From Morinoia aosen (Eukaryota > Arthropoda > Malacostraca > Amphipoda > Talitridae): a stretch of 64,000 nucleotides of DNA. The stretch lies in assembly GCA_030386875.1 (NCBI GenBank), contig CM059559.1, positions 6,569,177 through 6,633,176 of the forward strand, written 5' to 3'. The first letter of the stretch is position 1. Each line of letters opens with the position of its first letter. The translations under genes were made by a program, and so were the position numbers. Of the stretch, positions 3,325 to 53,329 are shown piece after piece. The notes beneath the pieces were generated by a model. It did no database searches, was not told the DNA's origin, and worked only from the letters and a program-made list of their open reading frames with translations.

Positions 3325-3553
3325 TTAACACTTTGACTGCAGCAACTAAATATTAAGTTCAACACCAAACTCAAATTCAAAGTCAACTGTAGTAAGCTAT
3401 TTGGAAAATATCAAACATGAACTGGATCTTGTCTTCATTTTGCTTTGATCAAGTATTTATGAAAATTGAATTTACGACTACTGGTTGGTCAGCAGCATTT
3501 TGAAAATAACTTCCGTGAACCACCGGTGGCGCACGTCGCAGTCAAAGTGTTAA
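3325..3553 (-). mobile_element. TTAA MITE, family 2 (piggyBac-type)
   Basis: A 221-bp element (3329-3549) flanked by perfect TTAA duplications (3325-3328, 3550-3553). Termini are CACTTTGACTGC and its inverted partner GCAGTCAAAGTG. TTAA duplication plus a CAC-starting terminus is the signature of piggyBac-superfamily non-autonomous elements. It lies in the opposite orientation to the copy at 52631-52848, with which it shares ACCGGTGG near one end and a GTTCAACAC/GAACTTAAGTT stretch near the other. No coding capacity. Confidence 0.8.
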
Positions 3554-3567
3554 GAATTGCAGACGAT

Positions 3568-3849
3568 CTAACCCGTTGACTAGTACGTTCGCGCAATCGT
3601 TACGGTTGGTTAAGTCAGGTTGTGAGTAGCAGAATCGAAAAACCGGTTTTACTGCTCGAACATATTTCTATTCTTTCTGAAAAGCACGAAAGAATATAAT
3701 TGCGCGATAGTACTTTACCTTGTACGCCAAAATTTAATTTGAAACAATGTAGTGGAATAACTGAAATGCAATTTATTTCTACTGGCATTGAAATACGCTG
3801 TATACCCCCAGTGGTGCATATATGTACCTATGTGTAGTCAACGTGTTAA
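3568..3849 (+). mobile_element. TTAA MITE, family 3 (piggyBac-type)
   Basis: A 274-bp element (3572-3845) flanked by CTAA (3568-3571) and TTAA (3846-3849). Ends are CCCGTTGACTAG and TAGTCAACGTG. It starts 18 bp after the family 2 element. Internal landmarks AAAAACCGG-TTTACTGCTC and, near the 3' end, CAGTGGTGCATATATGTACC recur in the element at 46037-47289. The latter segment is the ancestor-like form of that element's 26-bp array. Confidence 0.75.
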
Positions 3850-4081
3850 TGAAAAAAGTAGGTGGGGTCCTAGGACAGATCCTTGAGGAACACCTATACC
3901 AAGGGCATCTACTCAAATGCAAGCAACACGACAACAATTGTACGCAAAATTGAGATCTCATTATCCGCAGTAAAAAGATTAATACCATTTATCGAATGGT
4001 ACCATAGAAGTGAAGTAATATTTGAACATCCTCCACGGCCATTTCTTGCTAAAGTGTTCACCTTTAGTATAGAAAAGTTAG

Positions 4082-4350
4082 TTTAAGCCTCCCCGCACCA
4101 CAACAAAGGTGCTCCATAAAGACGAAGGATGAAGGCACCATCTATTATGTCTTACTGAGATAAGGATCGCCAAATCTATGCACAAAGTTTGTTTCTATAC
4201 AAGATCCAGTCACGCATAAAAAACAATAAATTGAGAAAAAAAAAGTTTATAAAATGCAATAAAAGTTCAAGAAGAAAGGAGTACACGCTGAGAAGAGGAC
4301 AGCAGTGAACCGAAACAAGAGAGCCAGTAATAGTGTTCAAATCTGCTTCG
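4082..4350 (+). repeat. SINE-like family A, copy 1 (partial)
   Basis: Matches the family A order of landmarks: GTTTAAGCCTCC, ACAACAAAGGTG, GAAGGCACCATCTA, ATCTATGCACAAAG, AAGTTCAAGAAGAAAG, GGACAGCAGTGAACCGAAA. The 3' quarter seen in other copies (CTCGGGCCCTCACAT to CCCTGAGGGG) is not recognisable. It ends before the decamer array. Confidence 0.7.
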
Positions 4351-6190: not shown

Positions 6191-9100
6191 CCTACCTCAC
6201 CCAACGTCGTCCAACATCGTGCAACGTCGTCCAACGTCGTGCAACGTCGTCCAACGTCGTGCAACGTCGTCCAACGTCGTGCAACGTCGTCCAACGTCGT
6301 GCAACGTCGTGCAACGTCGTGCAACGTCGTCCAACGTCGTGCAACGTCGTCCAACGTCGTCCAACGTCGTCCAACGTCGTCCAACGTCGTCCAACGTCGT
6401 CCAACGTCGTCCAACATCGTGCAACGTCGTGCAACGTCGTCCAACGTCGTCCAACGTCGTCCAACGTCGTCCAACGTCGTCCAACGTCGTCCAACGTCGT
6501 CCAACGTCGTCCAACGTCGTCCAACGTCGTCCAACGTCGTCCAACGTCGTCCAACGTCGTCCAACGTCGTCCAACGTCGTCCAACGTCGTCCAACGTCGT
6601 CCAACGTCGTCCAACGTCGTCCAACGTCGTCCAACGTCGTCCAACGTCGTCCAACGTCGTCCAACGTCGTCCAACGTCGTCCAACGTCGTCCAACGTCGT
6701 CAAACGTCGTCAAACGTCGTCAAACGTCGTCAAACGTCGTCAAACGTCGTCAAACGTCGTCAAACGTCGTCAAACGTCGTCAAACGTCGTCAAACGTCGT
6801 CAAACGTCGTCAAACGTCGTCAAACGTCGTCAAACGTCGTCAAACGTCGTCAAACGTCGTCAAACGTCGTCAAACGTCGTCAAACGTCGTCAAACGTCGT
6901 CAAACGTCGTCAAACGTCGTCAAACGTCGTCAAACGTCGTCAAACGTCGTCAAACGTCGTCAAACGTCGTCCAACGTCGTCCAACGTCGTCCAACGTCGT
7001 CCAACGTCGTCCAACGTCGTCCAACGTCGTCAAACGTCGTCAAACGTCGTCAAACGTCGTCAAACGTCGTCAAACGTCGTCAAACGTCGTCAAACGTCGT
7101 CAAACGTCGTCAAACGTCGTCAAACGTCGTCAAACGTCGTCAAACGTCGTCAAACGTCGTCAAACGTCGTCAAACGTCGTCAAACGTCGTCAAACGTCGT
7201 CAAACGTCGTCAAACGTCGTCAAACGTCGTCAAACGTCGTCAAACGTCGTCAAACGTCGTCAAACGTCGTCAAACGTCGTCAAACGTCGTCAAACGTCGT
7301 CAAACGTCGTCAAACGTCGTCAAACGTCGTCAAACGTCGTCAAACGTCGTCAAACGTCGTCAAACGTCGTCAAACGTCGTCCAACGTCGTCCAACGTCGT
7401 CAAACGTCGTCCAACGTCGTCCAACGTCGTCCAACGTCGTCAAACGTCGTCAAACGTCGTCAAACGTCGTCAAACGTCGTCAAACGTCGTCAAACGTCGT
7501 CAAACGTCGTCAAACGTCGTCAAACGTCGTCAAACGTCGTCAAACGTCGTCAAACGTCGTCAAACGTCGTCAAACGTCGTCAAACGTCGTCAAACGTCGT
7601 CAAACGTCGTCAAACGTCGTCCAACGTCGTCAAACGTCGTCAAACGTCGTCCAACGTCGTCAAACGTCGTCAAACGTCGTCAAACGTCGTCCAACGTCGT
7701 CAAACGTCGTCAAACGTCGTCAAACGTCGTCAAACGTCGTCAAACGTCGTCAAACGTCGTCCAACGTCGTCCAACGTCGTCCAACGTCGTCCAACGTCGT
7801 CCAACGTCGTCCAACGTCGTCCAACGTCGTCCAACGTCGTCCAACGTCGTCCAACGTCGTCCAACGTCGTCCAACGTCGTCCAACGTCGTCCAACGTCGT
7901 CCAACGTCGTCCAACGTCGTCCAACGTCGTCCAACGTCGTCCAACGTCGTCCAACGTCGTCCAACGTCGTCCAACGTCGTCCAACGTCGTCCAACGTCGT
8001 CCAACGTCGTCCAACGTCGTCCAACGTCGTCCAACGTCGTCCAACGTCGTCCAACGTCGTCCAACGTCGTCAAACGTCGTCAAACGTCGTCAAACGTCGT
8101 CAAACGTCGTCAAACGTCGTCAAACGTCGCCCAACGTCGTACAACGTCGTCCAACGTCGTCCAACGTCGTCAACGTCGTCCAACGTCGTCCAACGTCGTC
8201 CAACGTCGGTCAACGTCGTCCAACGTCGTCAACGTCGTCCAACGTCGTCCAACGTCGTCCAACGTCGTCCAACGTCGTCACGTCAAACGTCGTCAAACGT
8301 CGTCAAACGTCGTCAAACGTCGTCAACGTCGTCAAACGTCGTCAAACGTCGTCAAACGTCGTCAAACGTCGTTCAAACGTCGTCAAACGTCGTCAAACGT
8401 CGTCAAACGTCGTCAAACGTCGTCAAACGTCGTCAAACGTCGTCAAACGTCGTCAAACGTCGTCAAACGTCGTCAACCGTCACGTCGTCAAACGTCGTCA
8501 AACGTCGTCAAACGGTCGTCCAACGTCGTCCAACGTCGTCCAACGTCGTCAAACGTCGTCAAACGTCGTCAAACGTCGTCCAAACGGTCGTCAAACGTCG
8601 TCAAACGTCGTCAAACGTCGTCAAACGTCGTCAAACGTCGGTCAAACGTCGTCCAACGTCGTCCAACGTCGTCAACGTCGTCCAACGTCGTCCAACGTCG
8701 TCCAACGTCGTCCAACGTCGTCCAACGTCGTCCAACGTCGTCCACGTCGTCCAACGTCGTCCAACGTCGTCAAACGTCGTCAAACGTCGTCAAACGTCGT
8801 CAAACGTCGTCAAACGTCGTCAAACGTCGTCAAACGTCGTCAAACGTCGTCAAACGTCGTCAAAACGTCGTCAAACGTCGTCAAACGTCGTCCAACGTCG
8901 TCCAACGTCGTCCAACGTCGTCCAAACGTCGTCAAACGTCGTCAAACGTCGTCAAACGTCGTCAACGATCGTCAAACGTCGTCAAACGTCGTCAAACGTG
9001 GTCAAACGTCGTCAACGTCGTCAAACGTCGTCAAACGTCGTCAAACGTCGTCAAACGTCGTCAACGTCGTCCAACGTCGTCCAACGTCGTCCAACGTCGT

Positions 9101-10724: not shown

Positions 10725-10896
10725 ACACGGCGAGTGCGATACGGCCCATCCATGGGTCGATCGAAACAATTTCAATAATTCTTGAAAATGAATGGTATTT
10801 GACTTATTGTTTGTTATTTGTAAATATCTAACAACTTTTTGAATTTATTTTGAGTTGAATTCTGAACTTAAGTTTAACCAGTCGTAATAAACGTGT
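10725..10896 (+). mobile_element. TTAA MITE family 2, diverged copy
   Basis: The 3' part (TTTGAGTTGAATTCTGAACTTAAGTTTAACCAG, split here as TTTGAGTTGAATTC and TGAACTTAAGTTTAACC) follows the family 2 copy at 52631-52848 closely, ending AACGTGTAAAG where the intact copy has CAAAGTGTTAA. The 5' limit is a weak alignment (AACACGGCGAGTGCGATACG against the CACTTTGACTGTGACGTG end). The 13-bp array starts a few bases after its 3' end. Confidence 0.5.
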
Positions 10897-10902
10897 AAAG
10901 TT

Positions 10903-16859: not shown

Positions 16860-17091
16860 TGCCTTTGAACCGCACGTAACACGTTAGTTGGCCGCCGTTG
16901 TGCACGGAGGCAATTTTCGTGTTACTGACTCACCCATAGTCACACACACAGTTATAATTAATACTTAATCAAAGCTTCATGAAGGCACGATCCAGTTGAT
17001 GTTTGCTATTTTAAAATTGCTTACTACAGTGGACTTAAAATTCGAGTTGAATTTTGAACTTTAGTATGACCCATCGCAGTGATCGCGTTGA
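16860..17091 (+). mobile_element. TTAA MITE family 2, diverged copy
   Basis: Shares with the intact copy at 52631-52848 the order TAATCAAAGCT-CATGAAGGCAC, TTTGCTAT, TTACTACAGTGGACTT and TTCGAGTTGAATTTTGAAC. Terminal regions are recognisable but decayed (GCCTTTGAACCGCACG at the start, CGCAGTGATCGCGTTGAA at the end), so this is an older insertion. Confidence 0.55.
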
Positions 17092-19616: not shown

Positions 19617-19889
19617 TTAACACGTTCCCTGTGTATTGGGCCATATGTGTACCAACAGGTGTATTGCTCTTTTGAGTGCCGGTATAAATGCACGACATTA
19701 GGTGTTTCCCGACATTTTTTTAAATAATTGAAATCATACGAGGTAAAATGTTATCGTGCAATTGCATTTATCCTAATCCTTAGGATAAATTAAAACATAC
19801 TCAAGCTGGAAAATCGATATCCCTATTCTGCTACTTGAAACCTAACCCAAAACCCCGTTGAAGTCGCAGAAACGCAGGGAACGTGTTTA
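19617..19889 (+). mobile_element. TTAA MITE, family 4 (piggyBac-type)
   Basis: A 265-bp element (19621-19885) with termini CACGTTCCCTGTG and CGCAGGGAACGTG, flanked by TTAA (19617-19620) and TTTA (19886-19889). No coding capacity. The terminus shares the CACGTT start with family 3 but the interior is different, so the two were probably moved by related transposases. Confidence 0.75.
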
Positions 19890-19930: not shown

Positions 19931-20171
19931 CAATGACTTTCTGAAATGTCTTCTTAACTGCGACGTGACCCACCGGTGGTCACTGTGGGGATGTTCATAT
20001 TGCTGCTGACCGACCAGCAGTCACAAACTCAATTTTCATATTCACTTAATGAAAACTAGATAGAGGCACGATTTATTTAATGTTCGTTTTTATTTAAATT
20101 CATCGCTAAAATTAAGTCTAATTTGAGTTGGATGCTGAACTTTAGCTTCTCTCGCCACAATTTACGTATTG
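19931..20171 (+). mobile_element. TTAA MITE family 2, diverged copy
   Basis: Carries GCGACGTGACCCACCGGTGG, GCTGCTGACCGACCAGCAG, CACAAACTCAATTTTCAT and TTTGAGTTGGATGCTGAAC in the same order as the copy at 52631-52848. Ends are decayed. It lies directly 5' of SINE-like copy 2. Confidence 0.65.
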
Positions 20172-20233: not shown

Positions 20234-20591
20234 TAGATTAGATTCTTAGTTAGCTTAAGCCTCCCTATCCGCAACAAAGGCTATCCAAAGAGAGGAAGGA
20301 AGAAGGCACCATTTAGTATGGAGTTAAGGGAACGTGGAATCTATGCAGAAAGGACATAGAAACAGTAAGATGAGAAAGAAGTTCATGAAACAAGATCAAA
20401 GTTGAAGAAGAAAGTAGTAGGTGCTGAAAAACAGGACAGCAGTGAACCGAAAAAGATGGTCCGTAACAAAACAAAAACCTATTTTATTACAACAAAAAGG
20501 AAGCCCTACCTAACCTTTAGCTCGGGCCCTCACATAGTCCCCCTGGGAGCACTAATTCCCATAGATACAACAATAGTATCCCCCTGAGGGG
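20234..20591 (+). repeat. SINE-like family A, copy 2 (near full length)
   Basis: Runs from GATTAGATTAGATTC through GTTAGCTTAAGCCTCCC, AGAAGGCACCATTTAGTATG, GAGTTAAGGGAACGTGG, GATCAAAGTTGAAGAAGAAA and ACAGCAGTGAACCGAAA, then CTCGGGCCCTCACATAG, to the 3' end CCCCCTGAGGGG. No poly-A tail, no terminal inverted repeats and no long frame. The 61-codon frame in it is chance. Confidence 0.85.
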
Positions 20592-20639: not shown

Positions 20640-21013
20640 GATTGACAATAAGTTAGTTAGGTTAGTTACGTTACCCTCACCACAACAAAAGTGTTCAAAG
20701 AGAGGAAGGATGAGGGGCCCCATTTAGTATTGAGTCGAGGTAATACGTAATCTATGCACAAGGTGTGTTCCCGCTCAGGGCATAGAAACAGTAAGTTGAG
20801 AAGGAAGTTCATGAAACAAGATCAAAGTTGAAAAAGAAAGTAGTGGGTGCTGAAAAACAGGACAGCAGTGAACCGAAAAAAATGTGGCTCTTAATAAAAC
20901 AAAAAACACTATTTCAACAAAAGGAAGGCCTACCTAACTCGCAGCTCGGGACCTCACATTTTCCTTCTAGGAGTGCTAATTCTCCTAGACACAATCGTTG
21001 TCGCCCCCTGAGG
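20640..21013 (+). repeat. SINE-like family A, copy 3
   Basis: A second copy directly downstream of copy 2 in the same orientation, with GTGTGTTCCCGCTCAGGG in the middle (a segment shared with copies at 23230 and 39000) that copy 2 lacks. So at least two subfamilies differ by a ~15-20 bp internal indel. Ends CCCCCTGAGGTGA. Confidence 0.85.
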
Positions 21014-21386
21014 TGATTTCATGTTTCATTTATTCACGCTACACCTCCGAACATGCATATATTCCAAGCGCTTTCCTTACTCACAAGAAACAGTTAATTA
21101 TTGAAAAAAAAATATGTAGTAATTTTTGTAGACTCAAACGTTGGTCTCGCCATCAGATCTAGCGAGACACCACTTTTGGCAGGGCATCAGCTTCACGGAA
21201 TTTGGCAAGCGTGATGGTGCCAAGATGCGTTGCACACATGTGATGGCAGGTCACAGGTTTAGGCAGGAGGGGGGCGAGGGGGGGGAAGGGGGGCGGCCCA
21301 AATTGCAGCGGCCTACGGGCTCGTTTGGGGGGCGGCGAGCCTCGTAAACTGACGCCTGGCGTTCTGCTCAGCTGCCAGGGTGTCCT
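21014..21386. other. Unique spacer
   Basis: Unique sequence ending in a G-rich patch (21265-21300) and a short (GCCT)n run at 21387-21412. No gene recognised. A 68-codon frame here is within chance. Confidence 0.5.
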
Positions 21387-21477
21387 GCCTGCCTGCCTGC
21401 CTGCCTGCCGCCTGCCTCCGCCTGTGTCATTGTCTCACTTTTTCTTTCTTTCTTTTCTGTGGAAACATTCATTTCTT

Positions 21478-22959: not shown

Positions 22960-23230
22960 ATTTTAGATTATGTTACATAATGATTCAATTATATTAGATA
23001 AATGTTTGATTATATAACATAAGGATAAGATTATATTGCATAAGGATTAGATTATATTAGATATTAATTAAATTATATTACATAAAGATTAGATTATATT
23101 GCATTTGGATTAGATTACATTACAAATAATTAGATTACATTGGGATTAGATTATATTAGATAATGATTAAATTATATTGCACAAGGTTTGGATTATATTA
23201 CATAATGATTAAACTATATTGCATAAGGAT
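22960..23230. repeat. Degenerate ~20-bp GATTAGATTATATTACATAA array
   Basis: About 13 imperfect units of GATTAGATTATATTACATAA with indels. The array runs straight into SINE-like copy 4, whose family 5' end begins GATTAGATTAT, so unit and element head share sequence. Confidence 0.8.
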
Positions 23231-23605
23231 TAGATCAAAGAAGATGTTAGTTTTAGTCGCCCTAACCATAACAAAGGAGTCTCAATGAGTAGAAGGAGGA
23301 AGGCACCCTTTAGTATAGACTTGAGGGAACGTGGAATTTTTGCACAGGGTGTGTTCCCACACAAGATTCCCTGCGCATAGAAACTGTGTAAGTTGAGTAG
23401 AAAGTTCGTGCAACAGATAAAAGTTGGAAAAGAAAGTAGTTTGTACAAGAAAAAAGGAGAGCAGTGAACCGAAAAAGTTCGTAACGAAACAAAATCCTCT
23501 TCTGTATTAACAAAAAGAAGGCCTACCTAACTCTCATTTCGGGACCTCTCACTTTTACCCTGGGAGCGCTTTTACCCTTTACCCATTCTGAGGGTACGCA
23601 ATGTT
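23231..23605 (+). repeat. SINE-like family A, copy 4
   Basis: Contains GAAGGCACCCTTTAGTAT, GAGGGAACGTGGAATTTTTG, GTGTGTTCCCACAC, CAGTGAACCGAAAAAG, AAGGCCTACCTAACTCTC and ends TTCTGAGGGTAC. Belongs with copies 3 and 6 to the subfamily carrying the TGTGTTCCC segment. Two 67-72 codon minus frames here are chance. Confidence 0.8.
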
Positions 23606-23624
23606 GAATTCATGATTAGATTAG

Positions 23625-23919
23625 CCCTTAGTTTTAGCCTCCCTACCCGCAGCAACAAATGCTATCCAAAGAGAGGAAGTAGGAAGACACCATTTAGTAT
23701 GGAGTTAAGGAAACGCGGAATCTACGCAGAAAGGGCATAGAAACAGTAAGTTGTGAAAGAAGATCATGAAACAGGACCAAAGTTGAAGAAGAAAGTAGTA
23801 GGTGCTGAAAAACAGGACAGCAGTGAACCGAAAAAAGATGGTCCTAAGCATAACAAAAACATATTATTTCAATAAAAAAGAAAGCCTACCTAACTCTCAG
23901 CTCGGGACCTCACATATTG
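23625..23919 (+). repeat. SINE-like family A, copy 5 (interrupted)
   Basis: Starts GATTAGATTAGCCCTTAG and follows the family to CTCAGCTCGGGACCTCACAT, where the LTR at 23920 begins. The expected 3' 60 bp is not clearly resumed after the LTR, although TATTGGCCCTCC at 24553 could be its decayed continuation. Confidence 0.75.
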
Positions 23920-41384: not shown

Positions 41385-41707
41385 AGATTAGTTCAGATCG
41401 TAAGTTGGTTCAAGTCTCCATAACCGCAACAAAGGTGTTCCCACGCGAGGGAGAGAGAGGAAGCCACTATTTAACAAGTAATTAAGGGAAGGGGGACTCT
41501 GTGCACATGTGAGTGCCCTCATCCTGCGTGTAAAAACAGCAGGATTGAAAAGGAGGATGACTGGCCTCAGTCCAGTCTTTGGTAGTTGAAGAAGAAAGCA
41601 GATGATGTTGAAAAAGAGGACAGCATTAAACTGAAAAAGGATGTTCCGTAATAAAACAAATATTCTATTTTAATAAAAGGAAGGCTTTTCAGCTCGGGAT
41701 CTCACTT
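41385..41707 (+). repeat. SINE-like family A, copy 7 (diverged)
   Basis: Shares CATAACCGCAACAAAGGTG, AAGTAATTAAGGGAAGGGGG, TTGAAGAAGAAAGCAG, GGACAGCATTAAACTGAAAA and TCAGCTCGGGATCTCACTT with the family. The 3' end beyond TCTCACTT is missing. Confidence 0.65.
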
Positions 41708-41869: not shown

Positions 41870-42570
41870 GGGAGTTCAAGATGTCGCGTATCATGAACTC
41901 AGTGACCGGGATTCCATGATATTCCGTGTACCATGACCTCAGTGGCCGGGATGCCATGATATTACGTGTACATGACCTCAGTGACCGGGATGCCATGATA
42001 TTCCGCGTATCATGAACTCAGTGACCGGGACGCCATGATATTCCGTGTACATGACCTCAGTGACCGGGATGCCATGACATTCCGTGTACCATGACCTCAG
42101 TGCCCGGGATTCCATGATATTCCGCGTATCATGAACTCAGTGACCGGGATTATAGATTAGATTATTAGTTAGCTTAAGCCTCCCTATCTATAACAAAGGC
42201 GATCCAAAGAGAGGAAGGAAGAAGGCACCATCTAGCATGGAGTTAGGGGAACGCGGAATCCATGCAGAAAGGGCATAGAAACAGTAAGATAAGAAAGAAG
42301 TTCATGAAACAAGATCAAAGTTGAAGAAGAAAGTAGTAGGTGCGGAAAGAACAGGACAGCAGAGAACCGAAAAAAAATGGTTCTTTATATAACAAAAGCA
42401 TTTTATTTCAACTAAAAGAAGGCCTACATAACTCTCAGCTCGGGCCCTCGCATTGTCCCCCTAGGAGCGCTAATTCCCATAGATACAATAGTTGTATCTC
42501 CCTGAGGGGTCAGTGACCGGGATGCCATGATATTCCGCGCACCATGAACTCAGTGACCGGGATTCTATAA
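41870..42570. repeat. ~40-bp array split by a SINE-like insertion
   Basis: About seven copies (41870-42150) plus one and a half (42511-42570) of a 38-40 bp unit: CATGATATTCCGTGTACCAT then GACCTCAGTGACCGGGATGC. The array is interrupted by SINE-like copy 8. Confidence 0.9.
42151..42510 (+). repeat. SINE-like family A, copy 8 (full length, defines boundaries)
   Basis: 360 bp from TATAGATTAGATTATTAG to CTCCCTGAGGGGT, inside the ~40-bp array. CAGTGACCGGGAT (13 bp) stands immediately before it (42138-42150) and after it (42511-42523), while uninterrupted array units have it once, followed by GCCATG. This gives exact ends and a 13-bp target duplication. No terminal inverted repeats, no poly-A, no coding frame. 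Confidence 0.85.
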
Positions 42571-45789: not shown

Positions 45790-45950
45790 GGGTTAGAGGT
45801 AACGAGCGCTTATCCACCGTGCGGAGCATTCGTGCATGGGTTCGAAACTCTGCATACTTCGGTGTTTCTTCTCGTTGGGAAAAGGAAGGGATATTCCCTC
45901 CTTAACCTCTGGTTTGAAGTGGGTACCGGCTCGACCGGGGGTAACCGGTA
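45790..45950 (+). repeat. Possible tRNA-derived SINE head or tRNA-like relic
   Basis: GGTTCGAAACT (45839-45849) is close to the RNA polymerase III B box, and TTAGAGGTAACG (from 45793) lies about 46 bp upstream at A-box spacing, although the A box is a poor match. No cloverleaf could be drawn convincingly. Ends next to SINE-like copy 9. Confidence 0.3.
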
Positions 45951-46036
45951 TTGGTTAGATTAGATAAGTTAGTTTAGGCCTCCCTAACCGCAATCCAAGA
46001 GAGGAAGGAGGAAGGCTCTATTGAGTACGGACTTAG

Positions 46037-47289
46037 CACGTTGACTCCCGTTGCACGGTGGCTGCGGTCAATTTGGTTTTGTTAGAAGAAGTCGTATTGA
46101 AAAACCGGCTTTACTGCTCTAATACATTTTTAAACTTTCTAAAAAGTGTAAAGAATACAATTGAACTATTGAATGTTTCCTTATATCTTAAAATTTACAT
46201 CGTACAAGGTAGCAAAATTGTTGAAATGTTATTCGTCTATTCCAGTACGTAAATGAGCCATTTCCGTAGTGGTACACATATGCACACGTACGTAGTGGTA
46301 CACATATGCACACGTACGTAGTGGTACACATATGCACACGTACGTAGTGGTACACATATGCACACGTACGTAGTGGTACACATATGCACACGTACGTAGT
46401 GGTACACATATGCACACGTACGTAGTGGTACACATATGCACACGTACGTAGTGGTACACATATGCACACGTACGTAGTGGTACACATATGCACACGTACG
46501 TAGTGGTACACATATGCACCATACGTAGTGGTACACATATGCACACGTACGTAGTGGTACACATATGCACACGTACGTAGTGGTACACATATGCACACGT
46601 ACGTAGTGGTACACATATGCACACGTACGTAGTGGTACACATATGCACACGTACGTAGTGGTACACATATGCACACGTACGTAGTGGTACACATATGCAC
46701 ACGTACGTAGTGGTACACATATGCACACGTACGTAGTGGTACACATATGCACCATACGTAGTGGTACACATATGCACACGTACGTAGTGGTACACATATG
46801 CACACGTACGTAGTGGTACACATATGCACACGTACGTAGTGGTACACATATGCACACGTACGTAGTGGTACACATATGCACACGTACGTAGTGGTACACA
46901 TATGCACACGTACGTAGTGGTACACATATGCACACGTACGTAGTGGTACACATATGCACACGTACGTAGTGGTACACATATGCACACGTACGTAGTGGTA
47001 CACATATGCACACGTACGTAGTGGTACACATATGCACACGTACGTAGTGGTACACATATGCACACGTACGTAGTGGTACACATATGCACACGTACGTAGT
47101 GGTACACATATGCACACGTACGTAGTGGTACACATATGCACACGTACGTAGTGGTACACATATGCACACGTACGTAGTGGTACACATATGCACACGTACG
47201 TAGTGGTACACATATGCACACGTACGTAGTGGTACACATATGCACACGTACGTAGTGGTACACATATGCACACGTACGTAGACTACGTG
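46037..47289 (+). mobile_element. TTAA MITE family 3 with an internally expanded 3' end
   Basis: Starts CACGTTGACTCCCG after TTAG (46033-46036), contains AAAAACCGGCTTTACTGCTC like the copy at 3572-3845, and ends GACTACGTG before CTAA (47290-47293). The ordinary copy is 274 bp. Here the segment that reads CAGTGGTGCATATATGTACC near the 3' end of the ordinary copy is present as about 39 tandem units (46262-47280), so the element is 1253 bp long. Confidence 0.8.
46262..47282. repeat. 26-bp tandem array inside a MITE
   Basis: About 39 copies of a 26-bp unit: GTAGTGGTACACATATG then CACACGTAC. Two 25-bp variant units (GCACCATACGTAG) lie 233 bp apart (46517 and 46750), marking a nine-unit internal duplication. 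Contains CATATG and TACGTA palindromes in every unit. Minus frames of 344-402 residues are repeat artefacts. Confidence 0.97.
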
Positions 47290-47563
47290 CTAAGGAAACG
47301 CGTAATCTGCTAACAAAGTGCGCAGAAACAGTAAGATGAAAAAGAAGTTCATGAAAGAAGATGAAAGCTGAAGAAAAAAGTAGTAGGAGCTGATAAAACA
47401 GGACAGCAGTGAACCGAAAGAAGATAGCCCGTAACAAAACAAATAATCTATTCTATTTTAACATAAGGAAGCCAGCCTGAAAGTTAGCTAGGGGCCTCGC
47501 ATATTCCTCTTGGAGCCATGATTCCCATCGACACACTAACTGTATCCCCTGAGGAGGTAACCG

Positions 47564-49904: not shown

Positions 49905-50276
49905 AATGATAGGAGATTAGATTATAGGTTAGTTTAAGCCTCTCTTACCGCTACAAAAAAAAAGAGCATTCTAAGGGAGCAAGGAGGAAGGCACCATTTA
50001 TTATGCATATTAGGGAATGCGGAATCTATGCAGAAGGGGCATATAAACAGAAAGTTGGGAAAGAAGTTCACGAAAAAAGATAAAAGTTGAAGAAGAAAGT
50101 CAGAGGGGCTGAAAAACAGGACATCAATGAACCGAAAAAGGTGGTCCTTACATAACAAAAATATTTCATTTCAACAAAAAGAAGGCCCACCTAACTATCA
50201 GCTCGAGCCCTCACATTGACCTTAGGAGCGCTAATTCCCAGATACAATAATTGTATCCCCCTGAGGGGAATGATAG
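49905..50276 (+). repeat. SINE-like family A, copy 10 (full length)
   Basis: Element 49913-50268 (356 bp), GAGATTAGATTATAGG to CCCCTGAGGGG, flanked by AATGATAG on both sides (49905-49912 and 50269-50276). The second clear target duplication for this family, here 8 bp (9 if the preceding G is counted). Confidence 0.85.
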
Positions 50277-52592: not shown

Positions 52593-52932
52593 AGATTAGA
52601 TTTGATTATAAGTTAGCTTAAGAATCCTAACACTTTGACTGTGACGTGAGCCACCGGTGGTACACAGGGGGAGTTTTCATAAAGCTGCTGACCGGCCAGC
52701 AGTCACAAACTCATTTTCATAAAGCTTAATCAAAGCTAAATGAAGGCACAATCTCACGAAGGCTTGCTATCTTCAATATTCCTTACTATAATTGACTTTA
52801 AATTCGAGTTGAATGCTGAACTTAAGTTTTACCTGCCACAGTCAAAGTGTTAAACTACACCAAAGGTCTTCAGAGAAAGGATGGATCAAGACAACGTTTG
52901 TTAAGAGTTGAGGGAACCTGGAATCTATGGGG
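52593..52932 (+). repeat. SINE-like family A, copy 11 (split by a MITE, 3' end lost)
   Basis: Left part AGATTAGATTTGATTATAAG-TTAGCTTAAG to 52626. Right part from 52853 with CTACACCAAAGGTCTTCAG to GGAATCTATGG. Joined, it matches CCTAACCGCAACAAAGGTG of intact copies. Beyond GGAATCTATG the element is replaced by a G-run (52929-52992). Confidence 0.75.
52627..52852 (+). mobile_element. TTAA MITE family 2, best-preserved copy, nested
   Basis: Element 52631-52848 (218 bp), CACTTTGACTGTGACGTG to CCACAGTCAAAGTG, flanked by CTAA and TTAA. Inserted in SINE-like copy 11. Carries ACCGGTGG, GCTGACCGGCCAGCAG (itself a short palindrome) and GAGTTGAATGCTGAACTTAA. Confidence 0.8.
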
Positions 52933-52992
52933 GGAGGGGGAGGGGGGGAGGGGGGGAGGGGGAAGGAGGGAGGGGGGGGGGGGGAGTTGGGG
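52929..52992. repeat. G-run with sparse A
   Basis: About 64 bp of G-tracts of 3-11 broken by A, AA or T. Strong G-quadruplex potential on the plus strand. Confidence 0.9.
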
Positions 52993-53329
52993 GGCTAGAA
53001 ACTCATTTCATGATGGTTCGGTCACTTGTTTTGGCTTATGAAGACCTTCGGAGTATCTGAAGTGGGGTGTCTAGCGAGTGGACTTACGAGTACTTATGAC
53101 TAGATTCACTTGTACTTATCAGTAGCTTCACTTGTACTCATGAGTAGATTTACGAGTACTCATGTGGTCTGCATGGCAGCCACAACAAGAAATTTTCAAA
53201 TGATTAGTTCGCCAGCCACCCGATAAGAAATACGCACATGTGCGCCGTTTTGCGAACACAAGGCAAATCTAAGCTAAGAATTTGAACATGAATTGAGCGA
53301 ATGAAGTAAAAAGTGGAGACTGCAGTGTC
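52993..53329. other. Unique spacer with loose repeats
   Basis: GACTAGATTCACTTGTACTTA, in part TTCACTTGTACT, recurs three to four times at 53090-53165. Nothing else recognised. Confidence 0.5.

Follow-up and report, generated by a model that had tools for sequence, protein, structure and literature searches.

A minisatellite within a TTAA-type MITE of Morinoia aosen and its probable origin from a single-copy subterminal segment

The window, a stretch of 64,000 nucleotides of Morinoia aosen DNA, contains a MITE copy in which about 1 kb of tandem repeat lies close to the right end. The question raised by this locus is whether the array grew out of a segment that the element already possessed, as the original prediction held, or had another source. 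The element, its host repeat and its relatives in the window are described below, before the possible origins of the array are weighed.

The array-bearing element and its host repeat

The array-bearing copy, E2, comprises the following features.

46033–47293, plus strand: E2, a TTAA-type MITE with 4-bp target-site remnants (TTAG left, CTAA right)
46037–46048, plus strand: left terminal inverted repeat, CACGTTGACTCC
46049–46264, plus strand: interior, homologous to that of the relatives E1 and E3
46265–47281, plus strand: minisatellite, 39 units, of which 37 have 26 bp and two have 25 bp; CGTAG on both edges
46500–46524, plus strand: variant unit 10, 25 bp, CACCATAC
46733–46757, plus strand: variant unit 19, with the sequence of unit 10, nine units further
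47278–47289, plus strand: right terminus, GTAGACTACGTG, the inverted counterpart of the left end at 9 of 12 bases (by eye)

The two ends of E2 read TTAG-CACGTTGACT and AGACTACGTG-CTAA. The edges originally given for this element (46037–47289) and for its relative (3572–3845) are exact to the base when the 4-bp target-site remnants are excluded. As assembled, the array runs from 46266 to 47277 and contains 39 units, in agreement with the approximate count predicted; 37 of these are GTAGTGGTACACATATGCACACGTAC, and units 10 and 19 differ. TRF reports 46265–47281 with a period of 26 and 39.2 copies. At up to 3 mismatches the 26-bp unit has 37 matches in the 64-kb window, every one inside the E2 array, compared with none in each of 100 dinucleotide-preserving shuffles. 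The exact 20-base core of the unit gave no matches in viral_contigs or in genome_contigs, both of which are poor in eukaryotic DNA. The target-site remnants TTAG (46033–46036) and CTAA (47290–47293) are mirror images and not a direct duplication.

E2 lies between the two halves of a SINE-like repeat of approximately 350 bp that is dispersed in the window, where 13 profile hits are found, two of which are the halves beside E2.

45949–46036, minus strand: tail-side half of the SINE-like host of E2
47290–47554, minus strand: other half of the same host
45940–45947, plus strand: GGTAACCG, possible flanking repeat of the split copy, with its partner from 47556
20245–20591, 20661–21015, 23245–23577, 23614–23918, 41385–41707, 42157–42509, 49914–50268 and 4077–4319 (minus strand): further SINE-like copies, some partial

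The two halves align to adjoining parts of the unsplit copies, and the empty site in these copies is TTAA or a near form (TTAA itself in 3 of the 8 aligned). Judged from these alignments, E2 is an insertion into a SINE-like copy that was already present, and the unsplit paralogs represent the empty site. Read on the minus strand the repeat terminates in a TAATC-type tail (by eye). Nine SINE-like copies were checked for flanking repeats; two have a pair that abuts the copy or nearly does so, GAATGATAG at the copy at 49914 and GGTAACCG at the split copy, and one is confounded by the surrounding array. An 8-bp match lies elsewhere in two more, so an 8-bp flanking pair is unexceptional, and that of the split copy is at most suggestive. 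A degenerate array with a 21-bp period and GATTAGATTA within its units occupies 22963–23235, next to the TAATC-type tail of the copy at 23245, and is possibly an expanded form of such a tail.

Single-copy relatives and the kind of element

Two further members of the family are present in the window, E3 being an addition to the original prediction, and each carries the 26-bp segment once, whereas E2 carries it 39 times.

3568–3849, plus strand: E1, single-copy relative of E2, including target-site remnants
3808–3833, plus strand: 26-bp segment of E1, one copy
19617–19889, minus strand: E3, third family member, segment once (found with a profile of E1 and E2, E 2.8e-25)
19642–19654, minus strand: TGGTACACATATG, a 13-base stretch of E3 that the unit shares exactly

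When E2 is reduced to one unit and aligned end to end with E1, 181 of 275 ungapped columns are identical and the score is 147, whereas none of 500 dinucleotide shuffles exceeds 3. The interior on its own scores 121 against a shuffle maximum of 41 (n = 500). These values bear out the proposal that the two elements share both termini and interior. In a MAFFT alignment the identities are 178/275 for E1 and E2, 174/273 for E1 and E3, and 157/273 for E2 and E3 (57–65%).

The number of units retained in E2 has a clear effect on the alignment. With 0, 1, 2, 3 and 4 units the scores are 117, 147, 133, 115 and 93 against E1, and 46, 88, 70, 52 and 30 against E3, one unit being best in both cases. The segment had been predicted to occur once in E1 at the same place as the array, which these scores confirm; its counterpart is the full 26 bp, extending beyond the 20 originally quoted. 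Judged alone, the match of the E1 segment to the unit is weak to moderate (12 of 1000 dinucleotide shuffles are equally good), and what makes it convincing is its place between two collinear anchors rather than the short match itself. For the E3 segment, 5000 single-base shuffles yielded one match to the unit of equal quality. A single segment in two copies out of three makes a derived origin of the array the simplest reading; with only three known copies, 57–65% identical, this polarity rests on two against one.

The three copies are small, dispersed elements of approximately 270 bp, array excluded, with common ends and a common interior, and mobility is indicated by the interruption of the SINE-like repeat by E2 and the empty site in its unsplit copies. 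The 12-base terminal inverted repeats match at 11 positions in E3, 10 in E1 and 9 in E2 (by eye). The target-site ends are CTAA/TTAA in E1, TAAA/TTAA in E3 and TTAG/CTAA in E2, so that TTAA is exact at two of the six and one base off at four. Five of the six element tips are CACG, and the left end of E1 is CCCG. A piggyBac-type affiliation had been proposed for the family and is plausible at most: the target sites are TTAA-like, but the piggyBac tip CC[C/T]T, as given in an excerpt of PMC2872659, is absent from all six ends. The tip given for Kolobok in an excerpt of PMC6004289, RR (AGGRR in the T2 group), is likewise not observed, the ends beginning with CA or CC. A literature search with four tip strings gave no family name among the matches listed, judged by title.

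A second TTAA-type MITE family, of approximately 230 bp, is also found in the window.

3325–3553, 52625–52853, 19954–20168, 16887–17089 and, weakly, 10741–10897: copies of the second MITE family

Its two best copies have the tips CACTTTGACTG, one copy stops 14 bp before E1, and no internal array was seen in this family.

Origin of the array

The account that we consider probable as a whole has three steps. A non-autonomous DNA transposon, a TTAA-type MITE of approximately 270 bp, would have entered the SINE-like repeat. The 26-bp segment near the 3′ end of the MITE, with CGTAG on each side, would have been doubled by slippage or unequal exchange between these 5-bp repeats. From two units, whole-unit misalignment and the duplication of multi-unit blocks could then have given the 39 near-identical copies, and growth may have preceded or followed the insertion of E2. 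The central proposal, that a single-copy subterminal segment became a 1-kb array, is upheld by E1 and E3, both of which have the segment once and in collinear register with the array, and by the empty site in the SINE-like paralogs. That the change ran from one copy to many, that slippage or unequal exchange caused it, and that block duplication was a mode of growth are all inferred.

The edges of the array are informative in this respect. The period-26 identity overruns the whole units by 1 base on the left and 4 bases on the right, and CGTAG therefore stands at both edges. A direct repeat of this length around the unit falls within the 5–10 bp on which the model of Haber and Louis is based, and the pair fits the footprint expected of slippage or unequal exchange between short direct repeats. 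Alternatively the pair may be derived from the unit or have arisen by chance, for which hand arithmetic gives approximately 0.5% with random flanks. The corresponding positions are CCCAG and TGTAG in E1, with two bases in common, and CCTGT and CACAG in E3, which do not match (by eye). On inspection, no obvious excess of short end overlaps was seen across 59 arrays. The two 25-bp variants are identical to each other and nine units apart, which suggests that a block of several units was later duplicated or converted.

Tandem arrays can collapse through the same mechanisms that expand them. It might thus be argued that the array is the ancestral state and that E1 and E3 each shrank to one unit by deletion between units, the more so as there are only three copies from which to judge. 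Two independent and complete contractions would be required, however, and no partial second unit is seen in the aligned E1 or E3; the near identity of the units also suggests recent growth or homogenisation. An ancestral array is for these reasons unlikely. The possibility that an independent minisatellite was captured by the MITE or inserted into it, its resemblance to the single-copy segment being fortuitous, draws on the moderate match of the E1 stretch taken alone. Against it, E3 fits the unit better and has 13 exact bases in common with it, removal of every unit lowers the score against both E1 and E3, and outside the array the window holds no match to the unit with 3 mismatches or fewer, nor do the two contig collections, which hold little eukaryotic DNA, contain its exact core. 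Such a chance resemblance appears very improbable.

Growth from the element's own segment might also have been started by DNA structure, and the original prediction suggested that hairpins near a MITE end seed amplification. A hairpin or other structure would in that case have stalled replication or drawn repair, and the E1 segment does contain an imperfect palindrome (GGTGCATATA/TATATGTACC). However, none of the four stretches folded is more stable than its shuffles, with z values of +0.62 for the last unit and right end, +0.53 for three units, and −0.33 and +0.94 for the two strands of the E1 segment, and no palindrome like that of E1 is listed for the E2 stretch that holds the first unit. 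We therefore regard seeding by a hairpin as highly unlikely and retain doubling between the CGTAG repeats as the preferred start of the array. E2 fits short-repeat slippage as the way in which an array can begin within a mobile element.

Other arrays of the window and known systems

Tandem arrays with many different units cover 44,279 of the 64,000 bases of the window (1–64000), in 57 merged stretches. The mechanism had been put forward as an explanation for how a genome gains many unrelated minisatellites, and within the window this is not borne out. There are 36 arrays with a unit of 9 bp or more in four copies or more, and among them the E2 array is the one found inside a recognisable MITE. 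A listed SINE-like or MITE copy lies no more than 60 bp from five of the 57 merged arrays, where 4.9 are expected by chance (five was reached in 285 of 500 random placements); a family of mobile elements represented once in the window would escape this comparison. It is unlikely that the E-family MITE repeatedly seeds arrays at the same subterminal site and so acts as one source of this unusually array-rich genome; if it did, other copies in the genome would be expected to carry independent arrays.

Other contacts between arrays and mobile elements are of several kinds. Besides the E2 array with E1 and E3, the array units at 21475 and 49600 match SINE-like copies, over 13 bases (E 0.003) and 12 bases (E 0.017), respectively. 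One of the five arrays near mobile elements, 41885–42150, has a 40-bp period and resumes past its SINE-like neighbour; since it continues on the other side, the array is older than the SINE-like copy. TCAGTGACCGGGAT is found at both junctions of the SINE-like copy inserted in this array (41885–42563). A G-rich array (52929–52994) adjoins a SINE-like fragment, and the SINE-like sequence is not resumed beyond it (score 15, shuffle maximum 29). Two candidate features fall within arrays. Zf-Nsp1alpha passed the curated Pfam cut-off in a frame over the array 298–795, in a run on 8 stop-to-stop open reading frames out of the 117 listed, and is taken as a repeat artefact. The tRNA-Pro called by ARAGORN at 8182–8278 is inside an array with a 40-bp period and is probably a false positive. 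Rfam gave no match at the gathering threshold.

The E2 case leaves existing knowledge unchanged and gives no sign that the same route accounts for the other arrays of the region. Its value lies in how unusually readable the birth of a minisatellite is here: the relatives with one segment, the empty site, the flanking microhomology and the likely duplication of a block can all be seen in the same 64 kb.

The comparisons that follow rest on the papers given by PMC number, which relate the older Xenopus and minisatellite-birth studies. The Xenopus elements Xmix and Xstir (Hikosaka and Kawahara, 2004; PMC12628747, PMC6004289, PMC2872659) occur as a MITE, an array and composite forms, and, as in E2, an internal segment of a TTAA-target MITE has been amplified into tandem repeats. 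Xmix is assigned to the T2/Kolobok group with AGGRR tips in PMC6004289 and described as a piggyBac-MITE in PMC2872659. The stem–loop mechanism between two nearby elements that was proposed for Xstir is unnecessary for E2, and Xstir forms a large family in Xenopus whereas one array is known in the E family. Xenopus miDNA4 (Scalvenzi and Pollet, 2014; PMC12628747, PMC9659126) similarly has a monomer that is single or in an array of variable length, with adjoining short direct repeats of at least 5 bp for which a role as microhomology was proposed. It is, however, a Tc1/mariner MITE for which its authors suggest the capture of a repeat that already existed, whereas every one of the three E-family copies has the segment. 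Haber and Louis (1998; PMC6947457) described a unit between direct repeats of 5–10 bp that is duplicated by slippage or unequal crossing-over and then grows, as a general model of minisatellite birth, without special reference to MITEs. BrickBuilt of Porphyromonas gingivalis (PMC4596501) is a MITE with small inverted-repeat ends and a minisatellite of 23-bp units between leader and tail, but it is bacterial and its forms are present 19 times in one strain. The coral CMITEs (PMC2872659) are TTAA MITEs with tandem arrays put down to slippage, in which whole elements are in tandem rather than a subterminal segment as in E2. On this comparison the E2 array would represent a clean example of an already known route to tandem repeats, with Xstir and miDNA4 as its close precedents.
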